Positions 3,736 through 32,364 of a stretch of 32,364 nt of DNA are shown here, one piece after another. A model generated the notes under the pieces. It was given only the letters and a program-made list of their open reading frames with translations. It had not been told where the DNA came from and did not search any database. Made by a program: the position numbers and the translations under genes. Position 1 is the first letter of the stretch. The number at the start of each line of letters is the position of its first letter. The stretch lies in IMG/VR virus record IMGVR_UViG_3300025407_000077, positions 1 through 32,364 of that record; one strand, 5' to 3'. The DNA is from a virus.

Positions 3736-4152
3736 TTACTTTGCAGGTTTTTCTTCTCCCTCTTTAGGCTCTTCACCTTCTTCTCCCTCTTTAGGCTCTT
3801 CGCCTTCTTCACCTTCTTCTCCCTCTTTAGGTTCTTCACCTTCTTCGCCTTCTTCAAGTTTTTCAACTCTTTCAGTAAGATCCTCGATCATGGCTTTAAG
3901 ATCTTCGAGAGTTACCTCTTTTTCTTCGCCTTCTTCCATATTATCCTGATCTTCTGGATTATCATCCATGTGATCTTCGTCTTTTTCATCTGCCGGATTT
4001 GCACCAAATGCGCCTCCGTCCATGCTATATGTGTTTTGATCGTCTCTCCACTCTTCAGTCTGGTCAGTGCTACCGAAGTTGTTACTTCCGTACATATCGT
4101 CCTCGTTGAGTGTACGAGATTTCATAAAACCTGCAAAATTTTGAACTTTCAT
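3736..4152 (-). CDS. Acidic repeat protein with a capsid-targeting-like N-terminus
   Basis: A 138-residue protein that is extremely acidic after residue 17. It has a short coiled-coil-like helix at about residues 80-100 (VTLEDLKAMIEDLTERVEKL), then tandem GEEPKEGEE repeats up to the C-terminus. The first 17 residues (MKVQNFAGFMKSRTLNE) are different: aromatic, basic and ending in L-N-E, like T4 capsid-targeting peptides cleaved after L/I-x-E. An acidic, low-complexity protein with such a leader would fit a scaffold or an internal head protein. No enzyme domain is visible. It has its own candidate promoter and terminator, so it is probably transcribed alone or as a last gene. Confidence 0.75.
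   Translation of the reverse strand: MKVQNFAGFMKSRTLNEDDMYGSNNFGSTDQTEEWRDDQNTYSMDGGAFGANPADEKDEDHMDDNPEDQDNMEEGEEKEVTLEDLKAMIEDLTERVEKLEEGEEGEEPKEGEEGEEGEEPKEGEEGEEPKEGEEKPAK
3751..3849 (-). repeat. 27-bp tandem repeats encoding GEEPKEGEE
   Basis: Three near-identical 27-bp units (3751-3777, 3778-3804, 3814-3840) are separated or followed by 9-bp units (3805-3813, 3841-3849). Each long unit encodes GEEPKEGEE and each short unit GEE. The units differ by one or two third-position changes, so recent expansion by slippage or recombination is likely and copy number may vary between related phages. Confidence 0.9.
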
Positions 4153-22234: not shown

Positions 22235-22702
22235 TTATCTGTGTATAGCAAATGCAAGTCCAAGGATCACAAGTAAAGTGATCACAGCGAAATAGCCGAT
22301 CGAAAAATTAAACTTTTTCTTTGAGTATTTTTTGTAGTCAAACGTTATTTGCAGAACGTATCCGTAAAAGTCTGCAGTTTGGATTCGGTCGTAATCCATT
22401 TTAATTGAATCAAGTATGCCCTCCTGTGTAAGAAATTCGGTGTACTTTTTCATTTTTTCAGAGATTAGTCTCAGCTCGACTGATTCCTTTGCAGTATCAG
22501 TGTACATAAGCATTTCAGGATTAAGATTGACTCCAATATACATATTGGCATCTTCATCAACGGAAAGACCGACTTCTTCGAGCTTTTTACTCTCCTGTAA
22601 GCCAAAAATAATTTTCTTGTACTTTTGGTGATGTTTGAGTTCAGTTACACAATCAATAAGATCCTGATAGACCTTTTTCGGATTAACGTCTTTGATTTTC
22701 AT
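22235..22702 (-). CDS. Tail-anchored membrane protein, 155 aa
   Basis: Residues 1-130 are soluble and helical with charged patches; residues 133-153 (IGYFAVITLLVILGLAFAIH) are a single C-terminal membrane segment followed by Arg, so the soluble part would face the cytoplasm. No family recognised. It overlaps the sigma factor gene by 4 nt (ATGA), so the two are translationally coupled. Membrane proteins next to ECF-type sigma factors in bacteria are often anti-sigma factors; this one has the topology for a membrane tether but no recognisable anti-sigma domain. Confidence 0.7.
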   Translation of the reverse strand: MKIKDVNPKKVYQDLIDCVTELKHHQKYKKIIFGLQESKKLEEVGLSVDEDANMYIGVNLNPEMLMYTDTAKESVELRLISEKMKKYTEFLTQEGILDSIKMDYDRIQTADFYGYVLQITFDYKKYSKKKFNFSIGYFAVITLLVILGLAFAIHR

Positions 22703-23325
22703 AATAAGTCTTGTATTTTTTGCTCAAGTTGTGGATTTCCCTTGAGTACAGCTAATCGAACATCGTAACGTATCTTACGCAGTTTAGTTTTAACGGTGTT
22801 CTCATTTAGCTCATAATCACTTGCGATCTGCTTTACTTTCTTGTTAAGTAGCATTTTATCAACTGCAATGGATCTTAAGAGGTCATCCTCTATTTGATTG
22901 ATCTCATGGACGACAACATCATAAATGTCATCCAGTAATTTTTTGCTTTCAATAATAGACCCATCATCTGCTATTCTTTCTTGAACAGAATAGTGAGCGT
23001 CTATGTCTTGCACCGAGCTCTTCTTCTTGTAATGTAGGTAATACAAGGTTTCGTTTCTTGCAATCGTGTATATCCAGGTAGTAAACCTGCCTTTACTAAA
23101 ATCGAATTGCGAAGCGTTTTTGAAGATCTTTTTTAGAGTCCACTGAAGAGATTCCTCAGTATCAAATTCATTTCTACAGAATTTCCAGATGAAGTTTTTA
23201 AGCTTTGGAGAGATTAGAGTTGCTAATTCGTTTCTTTCTCTTTCTGTTATTTCGCTGGTTAGTAGTTTTTCTGAAATTTCTTGGATTCTTGCGTTGTTGA
23301 TCAGATTAATTTTCTCATATCCCAT
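22699..23325 (-). CDS. Sigma-70 family (ECF-type) sigma factor, candidate late sigma
   Basis: Directs RNA polymerase to phage promoters. Region 2 is seen at about residues 45-105, with the characteristic FTTWIYTIARNETLYYLHYK (residues 82-101). Region 4 at about 155-195 has a helix-turn-helix, VKQIASDYELNENTVKTKLR. There is no region 1.1 or 3, as in ECF sigma factors; T4 gp55, the late sigma, is also small (185 aa). The repeated AATAAATAA element before most clusters resembles the T4 late promoter and is the natural candidate target. It lies just downstream of the large terminase and a 99-aa gene. Confidence 0.85.
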   Translation of the reverse strand: MGYEKINLINNARIQEISEKLLTSEITERERNELATLISPKLKNFIWKFCRNEFDTEESLQWTLKKIFKNASQFDFSKGRFTTWIYTIARNETLYYLHYKKKSSVQDIDAHYSVQERIADDGSIIESKKLLDDIYDVVVHEINQIEDDLLRSIAVDKMLLNKKVKQIASDYELNENTVKTKLRKIRYDVRLAVLKGNPQLEQKIQDLL

Positions 23326-26379: not shown

Positions 26380-26625
26380 TTAGTTTATCTTGTTTTCGTA
26401 CTTATCTAATGCCGGATTCACATTGATTTTTATCTGTTTTACTGCCTCTATCCATTCATAGACAATCGCATCTATTTTTGAAAGGTATGTATCGAGCGTT
26501 GGATTCACTCCAAACATCTGACCTGACAGAGTTTTCTTAAGTATGTTTCCTTTGTAATCGTATCCCATGTTTAGACGATTCTCGCGTCTACTAAAGATGG
26601 GTCTGAATATGCTGTCTTTTGTCAT
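26380..26625 (-). CDS. Small conserved-looking protein, 81 aa
   Basis: A basic N-terminus (residues 1-30) and a helical C-terminus with Trp at residue 58. No family recognised. It overlaps the gp6-like baseplate gene by 4 nt (ATGA) and lies 4 nt before the candidate small terminase, in an unbroken operon. It may be a baseplate or packaging partner; the sequence does not say which. Confidence 0.65.
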   Translation of the reverse strand: MTKDSIFRPIFSRRENRLNMGYDYKGNILKKTLSGQMFGVNPTLDTYLSKIDAIVYEWIEAVKQIKINVNPALDKYENKIN

Positions 26626-28289
26626 GCTGATCCATTTTTTGGTCTAGGGACAATGTTCTTCACCTGAATATTTACAGGACCTAGTGAAGTGGTAGAGAGA
26701 CCTTCGCTATATGCGTTACCGTAGCGATCGGTGAATCCACCTTTTATTATCGCAAGTTCTCCATTTTCTATTATAATATCGTTGAATTCATCGACTCCAA
26801 CATCTGCAGCAGACGAATTTGCGATCTTGCTAATTTCGTTCTTTTTAGATACTATATAGATTGAAACTGAATCGACTCCGTTTACTCCCTCAAGTAGAGC
26901 AATCAAATCACTCTTTGGAATTCTGTTGCGTCTAGTCGTTTGAATAAAGAAGGTACCTAAAGAGTTAAGTATGTCGTTTTTAATGATGCTAATGTCAACA
27001 TCATCGTATGCAATTATTGAAACGTTCAATACATATAAGCTCGGTACTGGATCTATGATGACTGCATCAGTTGATATTAGCTTTGATCCTGATTTTTCAA
27101 TGTATTTCAAAAGCTCATTTTTTTGATAGTCGGTCAAGGTGAATCGATCGATGGTCGCGCTAAAATAATCCTGACCTGTGTTAAATGTTTGGCGTATGTC
27201 TGGAATAAGAAATAGGTCCAGAACACGACTATCGTTTGGATCAAGATACACTTGGATCACTGAGAAAAGCTTTAACTTTCTTAGTAACACTTCATAGTGA
27301 TCTACATTGACTAGGGCAAAGCTTTTCGATTCTCTAGGAGCAATAAGACGAGTCAAAGTTGAATCTTCTGCATTGGATCCAAAGAACGGAGCATGTGTTG
27401 CAGTTATGCTGATGTATTTATTTAGGTCGATCTCATCTCCCAAAGAGCTAAATCCAGTGTCGATCCATTCAAATCCAACCTTTGCTAGGTCGTTTGTACG
27501 GATATTGCCGTTTGCGCCCTCAGTCACCAGGTATTCAACTGTGATGTCTGCTCCCTTTGGCGGTATTGCACCAAAGTTTCCATTACCAAAATACACATCT
27601 ATTCCGCTAGTGATCCCGGTTCTAACCATGTATGCAGGTTCGCCTCTTGGCATGTCTAGGATAGAGTCGTACCTGTTCCAAAGACTTCCGTTCACATAGA
27701 CATTGACAAAAAAGTTATCAATATAAAAGTTTTGAGGACTGCTAATCGAATAGCTGTCTGTCGGTATGCCTTTAGCCGTTACTGTCTGAGTCTCAACAAT
27801 TCCTTGCTTTATTCCAAGCTTGAGTCCGTTATTGGTTCCATTGAATGGAAACCTTATTTGATCTTGCGAAAGCTCTAAAATATAGGTAAGTCCATTAGCT
27901 AGAGAACGAATTCTCGTGAGATTTGGAATAATCACGCTGTCGTATGGAGCGTTAACCGCACTTGAATTTGTGCTAATGCTGATCTCACCAATTGCGGCAA
28001 CTGCTCGGCTAGGGTTATGTCCCGAAAGGGAAGCTAACGAATAGACAGATGTAAGACGGGTGGCTTCATTTATATTAAGCTCAGTGATAGAGTCCTCTAT
28101 ATAATAGAACACAAGTTGCGTAAGGTTCTCAACAACAAGTAACAATTGGCCGAAAGGTGAGGCTGCCGTAAATATTGATCGGCTTTGACTAAAGCGGTTT
28201 GTCAGATAGTTTATAGTCTGACTCATGATGTCTTCTATGTATATACTTAGTCGATTAAGAACTTTAAAATTGTCAACTGCGCTTGCCAT
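26622..28289 (-). CDS. Baseplate wedge protein, T4 gp6 / baseplate J-like
   Basis: gp6 forms the ring that joins baseplate wedges and controls sheath contraction. The motif DVYFGNGNFGAIPPKGADI (about residues 230-248) followed by TVEYLVTEGANGNI is typical of the baseplate J/gp6 family, as is the C-terminal part with NDILNSLGTFFIQ and RIPKSDLIALLEGVNGVDSV, which matches the late domain of these proteins. At 555 aa it is shorter than T4 gp6 (660 aa). The start is preceded by a candidate late promoter, and four more genes follow in close succession down to the large terminase. Confidence 0.85.
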   Translation of the reverse strand: MASAVDNFKVLNRLSIYIEDIMSQTINYLTNRFSQSRSIFTAASPFGQLLLVVENLTQLVFYYIEDSITELNINEATRLTSVYSLASLSGHNPSRAVAAIGEISISTNSSAVNAPYDSVIIPNLTRIRSLANGLTYILELSQDQIRFPFNGTNNGLKLGIKQGIVETQTVTAKGIPTDSYSISSPQNFYIDNFFVNVYVNGSLWNRYDSILDMPRGEPAYMVRTGITSGIDVYFGNGNFGAIPPKGADITVEYLVTEGANGNIRTNDLAKVGFEWIDTGFSSLGDEIDLNKYISITATHAPFFGSNAEDSTLTRLIAPRESKSFALVNVDHYEVLLRKLKLFSVIQVYLDPNDSRVLDLFLIPDIRQTFNTGQDYFSATIDRFTLTDYQKNELLKYIEKSGSKLISTDAVIIDPVPSLYVLNVSIIAYDDVDISIIKNDILNSLGTFFIQTTRRNRIPKSDLIALLEGVNGVDSVSIYIVSKKNEISKIANSSAADVGVDEFNDIIIENGELAIIKGGFTDRYGNAYSEGLSTTSLGPVNIQVKNIVPRPKNGSA

Positions 28290-28321: not shown

Positions 28322-28369
28322 TTGAAACCGATTTAGTATATTAGATAAAATACTACGGATAGATAAATC
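28322..28369 (+). promoter_or_regulatory. Candidate promoter region of the tmRNA
   Basis: Two possible signals point at the tmRNA. One is a sigma-70-like pair, TTGAAA (28322-28327) and TAAAAT (28346-28351) with an 18-nt spacer. The other is AGATAAATC (28361-28369), close to the late element AGATAAATAA and 15 nt before the mature 5' end. Which one is used cannot be told from sequence. Confidence 0.45.
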
Positions 28370-28384
28370 AGATCTTTCCAATAT

Positions 28385-28799
28385 GGGCCGGCCGGGTATT
28401 GATTGGCGGCGTTAGTTCATTGAGATGATGCAAGCTGAGTTAGCATTGAAACTCGTTAATCCCCAATGCAGAATACAAACGACGCTAAGTCAACATTTAC
28501 CTTCGAAGACGCAATGTCTTTCGTTGGCGCAGAAGTAGCAATAGCTGCCTAAGCACCGGGCGGTGACTGCCTAGGAACAGAAAGTCACAAATTGGAGGTA
28601 CGATCAATAGATCGGAAGCCAGAAGACACTACGGAAAGACGTGTAGGCATGTAGATAGCCGTCATGAGGAAGAGAAGGAAACTCTTCATAAACTACCCCG
28701 AAAACCAAAAAGTTTGTCAGTGTCGTAAACTGAGTAAGCTTGTGAATGAGTCCTTTCTACTAGTCGAGCAAGACGTGGGTTCAACTCCCACCCGGTCCA
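28385..28799 (+). ncRNA. ssrA: tmRNA (transfer-messenger RNA)
   Basis: tmRNA frees stalled ribosomes and tags the unfinished protein. The ends pair as an alanine-type acceptor stem: GGGCCGG (28385-28391) with CCGGTCC (28792-28798), including the G3-U wobble that marks tRNA-Ala for charging. A perfect T arm follows tmRNA consensus (GTGGG, loop TTCAACT, CCCAC; 28775-28791). A long helix pairs TTCATT/AATGAG and CAAGCT/AGCTTG. An H-type pseudoknot (PK1) is formed by GAGTT/AACTC and CATTG/CAATG up to 28468. The tag frame ends AIAA-stop at 28550-28552; its last residues are FEDAMSFVGAEVAIAA. The resume codon is probably GAC or GCT at 28481-28486, giving a tag of 22-23 aa, about twice the usual length. 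The D-like domain departs from the bacterial consensus. CCA is not encoded. Confidence 0.9.
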
Positions 28800-28800
28800 C

Positions 28801-28837
28801 AATAAGCGATATACTTTTAGTGTATCGCTTATTTTTT
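28801..28837 (+). terminator. Rho-independent terminator after the tmRNA
   Basis: A 14-bp stem (AATAAGCGATATAC / GTGTATCGCTTATT, one wobble) with a 5-nt loop, followed by six T. It begins 2 nt after the mature tmRNA end. Its right arm also contains the stop codon of the convergent minus-strand gene. Confidence 0.9.
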
Positions 28838-30730: not shown

Positions 30731-30748
30731 TAAAAATAATGGGTCTTG

Positions 30749-32364
30749 ATGGCTATTTACACAAACCTAAACTCAATTAGGAGACTTACCAATTCTAGCT
30801 TAAATGCGATAATTGATATTACCAATCTAAACTTTAAGAATCTATCCTCCGCAAACCTTGGTTTCCTAACCAATATTGCGTATGATGAAACTCTAAATAC
30901 TGCAGCTCTTAGCGGAATAACAGTTGGCACCGTCATTGTGACGAATACTTTAAGCATGGTCCAGGGATCGACCACTAATCTAACAATAGATGCTCAAGGC
31001 AGAATCGTCGGTCAAAGCATCACGATGCAGATCTCCCAAGCAAAGAGGAGACGATTTACGGACTTTAATGACTGGCCTAGCACAGGAGTACCTGGAGAAA
31101 TAATTTACACCGGTATTTCAAATCAGCAACCCTATTTTGGAGAGGATTTTATCGGCTACTTACAGGGTAGAGGCTGGGTGAGTTTGACTGGAAACGGTGG
31201 AGGTGGAGGCGGTAATGATCCGGTTATTGTATTAGGCGATGGCACTGGATCATCTGTTCGTAAGTTAAACGGTAACTCAGCAACTGGTAACTATTCGACC
31301 ATTTCCGGCGGATCTGGAAATACAGTATCAGGTAATGCATCGACCATCGCTGGAGGTACACAAAATTCTGCTTCTGGAAGCGGAGGAGTCCTTAATTTTT
31401 CAACAGCATACAGCGGTTCGCTTCCTGATACTATGGGCTCAAATATTCAAACTGCAATTGATGCAACTTCCGGTATGGGATCTGGTGCAACTGCAGTGAT
31501 CACAATTTCCGGTGGAGTCCTTACTGCTTTTCCGGCTGATCCAGGCATCGATTACCAGGTAGGCGATACCCTCACTATATATGGAGACTCGCTTGGAGGA
31601 AGTCGTCCTCAAGACAATATTGTATTCACGGTAACACAAATACTTCCAGGAAATTCAGTTATTGGCGGAGGATACGCAAATTCAAGCGAAGCCGCGCTAG
31701 CTACAACAATAGGCGGAGGATATTCAAATTATATCAACAGTTCAGCAGGTTCAGTGATAGGCGGAGGTGTTGGAAGTATTATTTACAATGCGGTCACTGG
31801 CACAATTGCCGGAGGAAATTCAAATGTCGTGTCCGGTGTACTTGGAACCATTTCAGGTGGAGGCGGAAACTTGGCATCTGGTTATGTCTCTACCGTCGGC
31901 GGAGGAGTTTGTAATTCTGCAACTGGAGAAACTAATATAATCGGTGGAGGCTACGGAAACTTTACGAGTCACGAAGCCGCTACTGTTTCTGGAGGAATTA
32001 GCAACTGTGCAAGCTCATGTGTTGCAACAGTCGGAGGAGGATTCTGCAATACATCAGCTGGACCGCACGCAACAATCGGTGGAGGTGCACTAAATCACAT
32101 AATTGGAGCAGACGGTATACTAACACTTAGCGGAACCACATACAGTGGAACCCTTTCGAATAATACATATGCTTTAATTTCTCAGGACTCTACTTCTGGA
32201 AACGGTCATGATGCTCTATTTGAAATAATGATTTCAGGAGGAATTGCATCAATTACCGTTTCTTTTCCAGGACACGGCTATTCCACTGGCGATACTATCA
32301 CATTTTACGGAACCACATTTGGCGGATCTAGTCCTGCTGATGATATTACCATAACGGTAGGTCA
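30749..32364 (+). CDS. Tail fibre or adhesin with YadA-like head repeats (partial)
   Basis: The frame is open from the ATG at 30749 to the right edge (538 codons seen), so the gene is longer than the window. Residues 1-150 form an N-terminal attachment domain (MAIYTNLNSIRRLTNSSLNA) ending in a Gly run (149-155). From about 180 come short repeats of the type STISGGSGNTVSG, the left-handed beta-roll repeats of YadA/Hep_Hag trimeric adhesins. Two related modules of about 85 residues interrupt them: residues about 211-298 and 453 to the end. The pattern suggests a trimeric fibre that binds the host. The start is preceded by a candidate late promoter. Confidence 0.85.
   Translation, partial: MAIYTNLNSIRRLTNSSLNAIIDITNLNFKNLSSANLGFLTNIAYDETLNTAALSGITVGTVIVTNTLSMVQGSTTNLTIDAQGRIVGQSITMQISQAKRRRFTDFNDWPSTGVPGEIIYTGISNQQPYFGEDFIGYLQGRGWVSLTGNGGGGGGNDPVIVLGDGTGSSVRKLNGNSATGNYSTISGGSGNTVSGNASTIAGGTQNSASGSGGVLNFSTAYSGSLPDTMGSNIQTAIDATSGMGSGATAVITISGGVLTAFPADPGIDYQVGDTLTIYGDSLGGSRPQDNIVFTVTQILPGNSVIGGGYANSSEAALATTIGGGYSNYINSSAGSVIGGGVGSIIYNAVTGTIAGGNSNVVSGVLGTISGGGGNLASGYVSTVGGGVCNSATGETNIIGGGYGNFTSHEAATVSGGISNCASSCVATVGGGFCNTSAGPHATIGGGALNHIIGADGILTLSGTTYSGTLSNNTYALISQDSTSGNGHDALFEIMISGGIASITVSFPGHGYSTGDTITFYGTTFGGSSPADDITITVG
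31286..32095 (+). repeat. Hep_Hag/YadA-head repeat array in the fibre gene
   Basis: Encodes 13-16 residue repeats centred on T-I/V-x-G-G-G-x-x-N, for example ASTIAGGTQNSASG, ATTIGGGYSNYINS, STVGGGVCNSATG, ATVGGGFCNTSAG and ATIGGGALNH. About ten copies are visible, interrupted once by an inserted module (31379-31642). The DNA is not identical between units, so these are old repeats kept at protein level. Confidence 0.85.
31472..32362 (+). repeat. Two related inserted modules within the fibre
   Basis: Residues 242-296 (31472-31636) and 484-537 (32198-32359) share the order ISGGxxxxxxxFP-G-xY-xGDTxTxYG-xxxGGSxPxDxI-xTV. They are separated by a run of YadA-like repeats, so the same domain has been inserted or duplicated twice in one fibre. 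The module may carry receptor contact or stabilise the beta-roll. Confidence 0.8.

Follow-up and report, generated by a model that had tools for sequence, protein, structure and literature searches.

tmRNA releases ribosomes that have become stuck and tags their incomplete protein so that it is destroyed. In a collection of 97,179 tmRNA sequences, the commonest tag length is 10 amino acids; the viral part of that collection was drawn from RefSeq viruses, not from viral metagenome contigs (PMC11915505). One survey found a tmRNA gene in about 2% of phage genomes (PMC9004378), and in mycobacteriophage Wildcat no lytic gene is expressed more highly than the tmRNA (PMC7474061). A long natural tag is known from the ssrA of Mesoplasma florum, where it is read by Lon (PMC9382460).

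Herein, a virus fragment of 32,364 bases was analyzed at its full length and is referred to as the window. Taking gene caller, family model and relatives together, it is identified as carrying a genuine virus-encoded one-piece tmRNA (Table 1). ARAGORN called the gene at 28385-28800 on the plus strand with the 23-amino-acid tag DAKSTFTFEDAMSFVGAEVAIAA. RF00023, when the region was searched alone, matched over its full length (1-374 of 374) with 44.8 bits and an E value of 1.4e-16. A sequence-only reading of this DNA had proposed a real tmRNA rather than a tRNA fragment, with a tag of 22-23 residues ending in AEVAIAA, and both proposals are borne out by these calls; the ARAGORN coordinates agree with those given there. 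The covariance-model search suggested in the same reading gives a full-length alignment that lies 2 bits under the Rfam gathering score of 47 bits; therefore, a default Rfam scan of the whole window reported nothing. The tmRNAs of the relatives scored from 51.8 (L002) to 115 bits. A circularly permuted, two-piece tmRNA was rejected, as the 5' and 3' acceptor strands stand in the standard order and the corresponding model RF04321 reached only 16.9 bits. A relaxed ARAGORN run (-ps50) returned noise only.

As had also been pointed out from the sequence, the D-like region departs from consensus, with GGGTATTGAT where GGNTTTGAC is usual; other members vary there too. The DNA shows no terminal CCA, with ACAATAA running from 28799 onward. 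Maturation of a tmRNA from such a CCA-less gene needs a CCA-adding nucleotidyltransferase.

Table 1 Features of the tmRNA locus in the window, with the basis of each assignment.
Feature	Position	Strand	Basis
tmRNA gene, one-piece; processed RNA of about 415 nt, with CCA added after transcription	28385..28799	+	ARAGORN, RF00023, kept in relatives
Acceptor stem, 5' strand GGGCCGG, with G3-U	28385..28391	+	pairs with 28792-28798
Acceptor stem, 3' strand CCGGTCC, not followed by an encoded CCA	28792..28798	+	sequence, alignment of relatives
Helix P2, inner part, 5' strand	28430..28435	+	pairs with 28738-28743; 99% of cells paired
Pseudoknot PK1, GAGT/ACTC and GCATTG/CAATGC	28437..28469	+	91% and 75% of cells paired
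Tag reading frame GAC...GCC TAA, DAKSTFTFEDAMSFVGAEVAIAA, 23 aa	28481..28552, including UAA	+	ARAGORN; frame-specific codon constraint
Conserved tag core TTCGAAGACGCAATGTCTTTCGTT, read as FEDAMSFV	28502..28525	+	viral contig matches
In-frame hairpin CGAAGAC-GCAAT-GTCTTTCG, 7 pairs, one bulged T	28504..28523	+	pairing in 34 relatives
Pseudoknot PK2 candidate, GGC/GCC and GTGAC/GTCAC	28559..28588	+	visible in sequence
T arm GTGGG-TTCAACT-CCCAC	28775..28791	+	100% of cells paired
Baseplate wedge (gp6-like) gene, divergent neighbor and synteny anchor	26622..28289	-	PHROG 219, E 1.5e-27
Terminator-like hairpin, 15 pairs, T run	28801..28833	+	scan: 1 versus 0.7 in shuffles
Weak sigma-70-like promoter candidate TTGAAA-18-TAAAAT	28322..28351	+	not above chance

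The large terminase of the window is of the T4 type. Since the named phage relatives by gp6 are mostly Bacteroidota phages (Prevotella Lak, Tenacibaculum, Flavobacterium and Chryseobacterium), the host is probably a member of Bacteroidota. A possible late-type promoter had been offered as an argument for late expression. This argument is not supported, as promoter-like sites were at shuffle level (3 versus 1.9 +/- 1.3 in shuffles); late expression of the tmRNA is neither supported nor excluded. Near the terminase, a gene (22699-23325, minus strand) encodes a protein with sigma-70 region 2, which is a candidate sigma factor by which the phage would read its own promoters. Elsewhere in the window are an acidic low-complexity protein with EEGEEPKEGEE repeats (3736-4152, minus strand) and a fiber-like protein with many GGG-N-S/A-TIGGG repeats (30746-32362, plus strand), which runs off the record.

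The structure was held fixed and counted in two alignments, A2 with 34 distinct tmRNAs of the FEDAMSFV tag class and A1 with 19 gp6-linked tmRNAs of the FWSLVN class. In A2, 83.8% of cells were paired versus 38-53% when the partners were slid, and double-change cells over the whole structure numbered 221 versus 82.7 in shuffles; the corresponding values in A1 were 91.7% versus 37-44% and 85 versus 27.9, under slide and shuffle controls that leave some effect of relatedness in both alignments. The G3-U pair was invariant (34 of 34 in A2; 18 of 18 in A1). Within A2, one pair of the inner P2 helix occurs as AU, GC, CG and UA, 9 of the 10 pairs of PK1 changed on both sides with both stems covarying, and all five pairs of the T arm showed double changes. 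PK2 is clear in A1 and 47-57% paired in A2, where the region is unaligned. Column identity in the FEDAMSFV class was 96% in the tag core versus 39% in PK2-PK4, the core figure being partly by construction because the search pattern fixes the core. Despite numerous substitutions in the relatives, the acceptor stem, P2, PK1 and the T arm persist there because the changes compensate each other. Conservation of PK1 and of the tag frame had been named in the sequence-only reading as a check, and both are kept.

A protein search with gp6 recovered 80 viral loci. In many of these relatives a tmRNA lies in the same divergent spacer beside the gp6-like gene, and in others none is found there. This spacer, upstream of the gp6-like gene, appears to be a variable cassette site. 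In three close relatives without a tmRNA (L003, L007 and L008), the spacer is occupied by a small lipoprotein-like gene, and L003 retains a similar AATACT-containing upstream element. Several tag classes occur. FEDAMSFV tags are found in the window, L005 and L080, and also in L070, L072, L073 and L078 at about 50% gp6 identity. The gp6 proteins of the FWSLVN and IWDVIN/IWNLIN classes are likewise about 50% identical, and L009 has the short tag GNTKLAMAA. A protein-anchored sample, which was not chosen by tag, contributed two further tags, DNKSTFTFENAMSFVGADLAVAA and the short DNNLSVVGEVEYAIAA.

L002, whose gp6 is 77% identical to that of the window and whose tmRNA is 81% identical over aligned positions, is without about 30 nt of the module, in frame, so that its tag reads GNSFVGAEMAIAA (13 amino acids); the tags of close relatives without the module have 13 and 16 amino acids. 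L100 carries a quite different 31-amino-acid tag, GKVYNSEDMMSIPTSITRTAVAEEVECLMAA, in spite of a terminase that is 81% identical over the matched part. This indicates that the module can change fast.

The degenerate core pattern TTYGARGAYGCNATGTCNTTYGT matched 73 viral contigs, of which 60 close as tmRNAs under a strict acceptor and T-arm test. Three that failed this test (L201, L222 and L245) passed RF00023 on whole records, some of the remaining contigs are cut by contig ends, and L205 was rejected because its match falls in a protein gene. Only 19 of the viral loci adjoin gp6. Where a terminase was found at the others, it was mostly 30-33% identical over the matched part, and 43% in one case, which indicates that the tag core is common to distant T4-type phages. 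The FWSLVN pattern matched 54 contigs, nearly all beside gp6. A nucleotide search of phage records gave short matches only. When bacterial and archaeal genomes (257 Gb) were searched, the TTYGARGAYGCNATGTCNTTYGT pattern had three matches, each of which fell in an unrelated protein gene lacking tmRNA features; no FEDAMSFV core was found in a tmRNA of these genomes, and a host origin of the tag was rejected. The extra tag length is a discrete in-frame module, which some close relatives have and others lack, which recurs in distant phages and which was seen in none of the bacterial tmRNAs examined. Dozens of uncultivated phages carry this tag family. The finding that the added length is a module with a peptide core and a hairpin came from the relatives and was not part of the sequence-only reading.

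The same comparisons bear on the possibility that the gene is a decayed or passenger host tmRNA whose tag was lengthened by drift. The low RF00023 score of the window (44.8 bits) and the patchy presence, with several close relatives lacking the gene, would fit such an origin. Set against them are the intact covarying stems, the invariant G3-U pair, the intact frame under purifying selection, the terminator and the synteny, and we consider this origin very improbable.

ARAGORN tags were wrong or truncated in nine long-tag tmRNAs (L070, L072, L073, L078, L192, L203, L209, L227 and L257), with mis-tags including APVPLMGL and VKADLEH...; the correct tags were read from the sequence. Tag surveys based on ARAGORN therefore miss this class. 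Standard tools either under-call such tmRNAs, through the Rfam cut-off, or misread their tags, through ARAGORN.

The module carries an in-frame, conserved peptide core, which is FEDAMSFV in the window and FWSLVN or IWDVIN in others. The six-codon core of the FWSLVN class in A1, which was sampled mostly through gp6 with a few rows through the tag pattern, had a pN/pS of 0.18 in frame versus 0.92 and 0.96 in the shifted frames. The substitutions in this core are F/I, S/D/N, L/V/I and V/I, and the W is invariant. The FEDAMSFV sample was fetched by a pattern that fixes much of the core, and perfect conservation there is partly by construction; pN/pS in this class was counted only for codons outside the search pattern. 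It was 0.42 before the core (1.3 and 11.5 in the shifted frames), 0.43 after it (2.0 and 0.75) and 0.30 in the last four tag codons (1.1 and 1.9). Of these controls, 0.75 stands least clearly apart, which makes the codons directly following the core the weakest part of the peptide evidence. The AxAA end of the tag, which is like that of host tags, is kept across lineages.

The module is also a folded RNA. The hairpin of the FEDAMSFV class, CGAAGAY-GCNAU-GUCUUUYG, lies wholly within the frame, and 99.2% of its cells were paired in 34 relatives. At third positions in its stem, only changes that preserve pairing occur (GAA and TCT are invariant in real tmRNAs; C or T stands opposite G), while the loop and the unpaired positions are free to differ. 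In L100, a double change has replaced a C-G pair by G-C. At the same place, the FWSLVN class has a hairpin unrelated in sequence, GUUAAC/GUUAAC with an outer GGAG/CUCC stem, which becomes CUCA/UGAG in L318, L269 and L271. When compared with 1000 synonymous recodings, the tags were stabler than the mean in 15 of 17 long-tag members and not in two. The z values of the 15 ranged from -0.4 to -2.3, eight of them from -1.7 to -2.3; no pooled p-value is given, because the 17 members are mutually related.

These RNA features would be expected if the module had been selected mainly as RNA, the hairpin being a structural element for nuclease protection or ribosome pacing and the longer peptide a tolerated by-product. 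The pair-compatible third positions, the double change, the fold stability and the unrelated hairpins at one place all favor this view. However, an RNA-only element need neither be in frame nor keep residues, whereas the constraint observed is frame-specific with conservative hydrophobic swaps, and the W stays invariant also where its TGG lies outside the stem (L318, L269 and L271). Selection mainly as RNA is possible but rather doubtful to us; the tag is constrained both as a peptide and as an RNA hairpin.

The loop of canonical helix 5 normally holds the tmRNA stop codon (Burks 2005, PMC1168896). The RF00023 alignment places the mid-tag hairpin as helix 5, with the stop codon outside its loop. 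This placement is disfavored by the FWSLVN class, in which the end of the tag and the stop codon lie inside another helix (GUUAC/GUGAC with variants), with 75.6% of cells paired and double changes in 3 of 5 pairs; this helix is weak in the window class. Because this second helix surrounds the stop codon, the evidence favors the mid-tag hairpin as an element added upstream of helix 5.

The interpretation that we prefer, and hold to be probable, is a working phage tmRNA with a two-part tag, in which a degron end is combined with a module peptide as a recognition site and the hairpin keeps the fold. The tmRNA would be charged with alanine, as predicted from the G3-U pair, and bound by SmpB, probably that of the host. 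It would enter ribosomes stalled on truncated messages, add the alanine and the 23-residue tag, and allow release of the ribosome at UAA. The AxAA end would mimic the host degron and lead the tagged product to ClpXP-type proteolysis. The preceding phage-specific module encodes a conserved hydrophobic/acidic peptide (FEDAMSFV; FWSLVN/IWDVIN in sisters) and an RNA hairpin at once. The peptide would most likely add a protease or adaptor recognition site, so that tagged products are disposed of more quickly than with the host tag or are targeted in another way, and the hairpin may hold the mRNA-like domain in its fold up to the moment of reading. The anatomy of the tmRNA, its conservation, the coding constraint and the hairpin are observed; that the RNA is charged, uses SmpB and leads to degradation, and that the module has a role, is inferred. 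The role given to the peptide draws on no homologous function.

The 271-kb FWSLVN phages (G041-G044, L340-L343) encode SmpB (PF01668), as do 6 of the 7 huge-phage records searched (Lak / huge-phage records L133-L136); none was found in the other large long-tag records searched, which may be incomplete. Since SmpB is absent from most of the large relatives searched, a host partner must be assumed. A phage genome does not require SmpB if the host supplies it, and the window is only a 32-kb fragment.

The long tag might alter the fate of proteins instead of speeding their destruction, either by protecting them from a host protease or by routing them to a compartment or factor of the phage. In favor of this, the core is phage-specific in the searches made and unlike the sampled host tags, and some long-tag phages have a ClpP-family protein of their own. 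However, all lineages keep a hydrophobic AxAA-like end that resembles host degrons and whose last four codons are under purifying constraint, and both points suggest degradation. Moreover, ClpP-family proteins are inconsistently present, in 6 of 12 records searched, including a short-tag phage, and Lon_C in 0 of the 12, records that may be incomplete; phage-encoded Lon as the tag reader was rejected on this result. A changed fate without faster destruction is improbable in our view. In a bolder reading, phages linked to Bacteroidota have evolved a two-part tag whose phage-specific core peptide serves specially for targeting, with either a phage factor or a protease adaptor as its reader. This proposal is offered tentatively and is less likely than not. 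If true, the phage tmRNA would redirect the fate of the products of stalled ribosomes during infection, beyond backing up the host system. The core is kept among phages with about 30%-identical terminases, is absent from sampled host tags and is doubly constrained, which suggests trans-translation tailored by phages.

In comparison with known systems, the locus shares with bacterial ssrA (RF00023, Bacteroidota type) the acceptor stem with G3-U, the T arm, P2, PK1, the frame, PK2 and the AxAA end, and its resume codon is Gly or Asp, as in some bacteria. It differs from Bacteroidota ssrA in the 23-amino-acid tag, the extra in-frame hairpin and the low family-model score. Among 31 Bacteroidota tmRNAs sampled, 30 had tags of 9-10 amino acids, in agreement with the earlier estimate that the window tag is about twice the usual bacterial length; the 31st, of 14 amino acids, was set aside as an apparent ARAGORN mis-call. 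The Mesoplasma florum tag is likewise longer than that of E. coli and tied to a different protease (PMC9382460), but it is bacterial, ends in NYAFA, is unrelated in sequence and belongs to the Mollicutes, which lack active ClpXP.

Huge phages (Al-Shayeb 2020, PMC7162821) also encode tmRNAs, at least one with a long tag (LR756504), whereas the LR756500 and Lak tags have 10 amino acids and SmpB is encoded in 6 of 7 records searched. The long-tag case is a 636-kb uncultured phage (L114, LR756504.1 280507-280863, minus strand) with a tmRNA of 65 bits and the 24-amino-acid tag DNVNSFEQSILNELFAPVEMAVAA, uncalled by ARAGORN. The short tags are GNNAEMRMAA, DDEIDFRMAA and DDEIEFRMAA (L113, L115 and L116; huge phages LR756500 and Lak). 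The long tag of Bxz1, which the sequence-only reading had mentioned, is borne out by the Bxz1-type phage Momo (KR080196), whose tag ATDTDATVTDAEIEAFFAEEAAALV has 25 amino acids; 23 amino acids is therefore not a record. Momo too has a phage-encoded one-piece tmRNA with a long tag, but its tag is unrelated in sequence, its host is of another phylum and its gene lies in a tRNA array. No description of the FEDAMSFV/FWSLVN tag class was found in the literature, which is weak evidence of novelty as subscription papers were mostly outside the search. Phage tmRNAs and long tags are already known, and the unusual part of this locus is the two-part tag.
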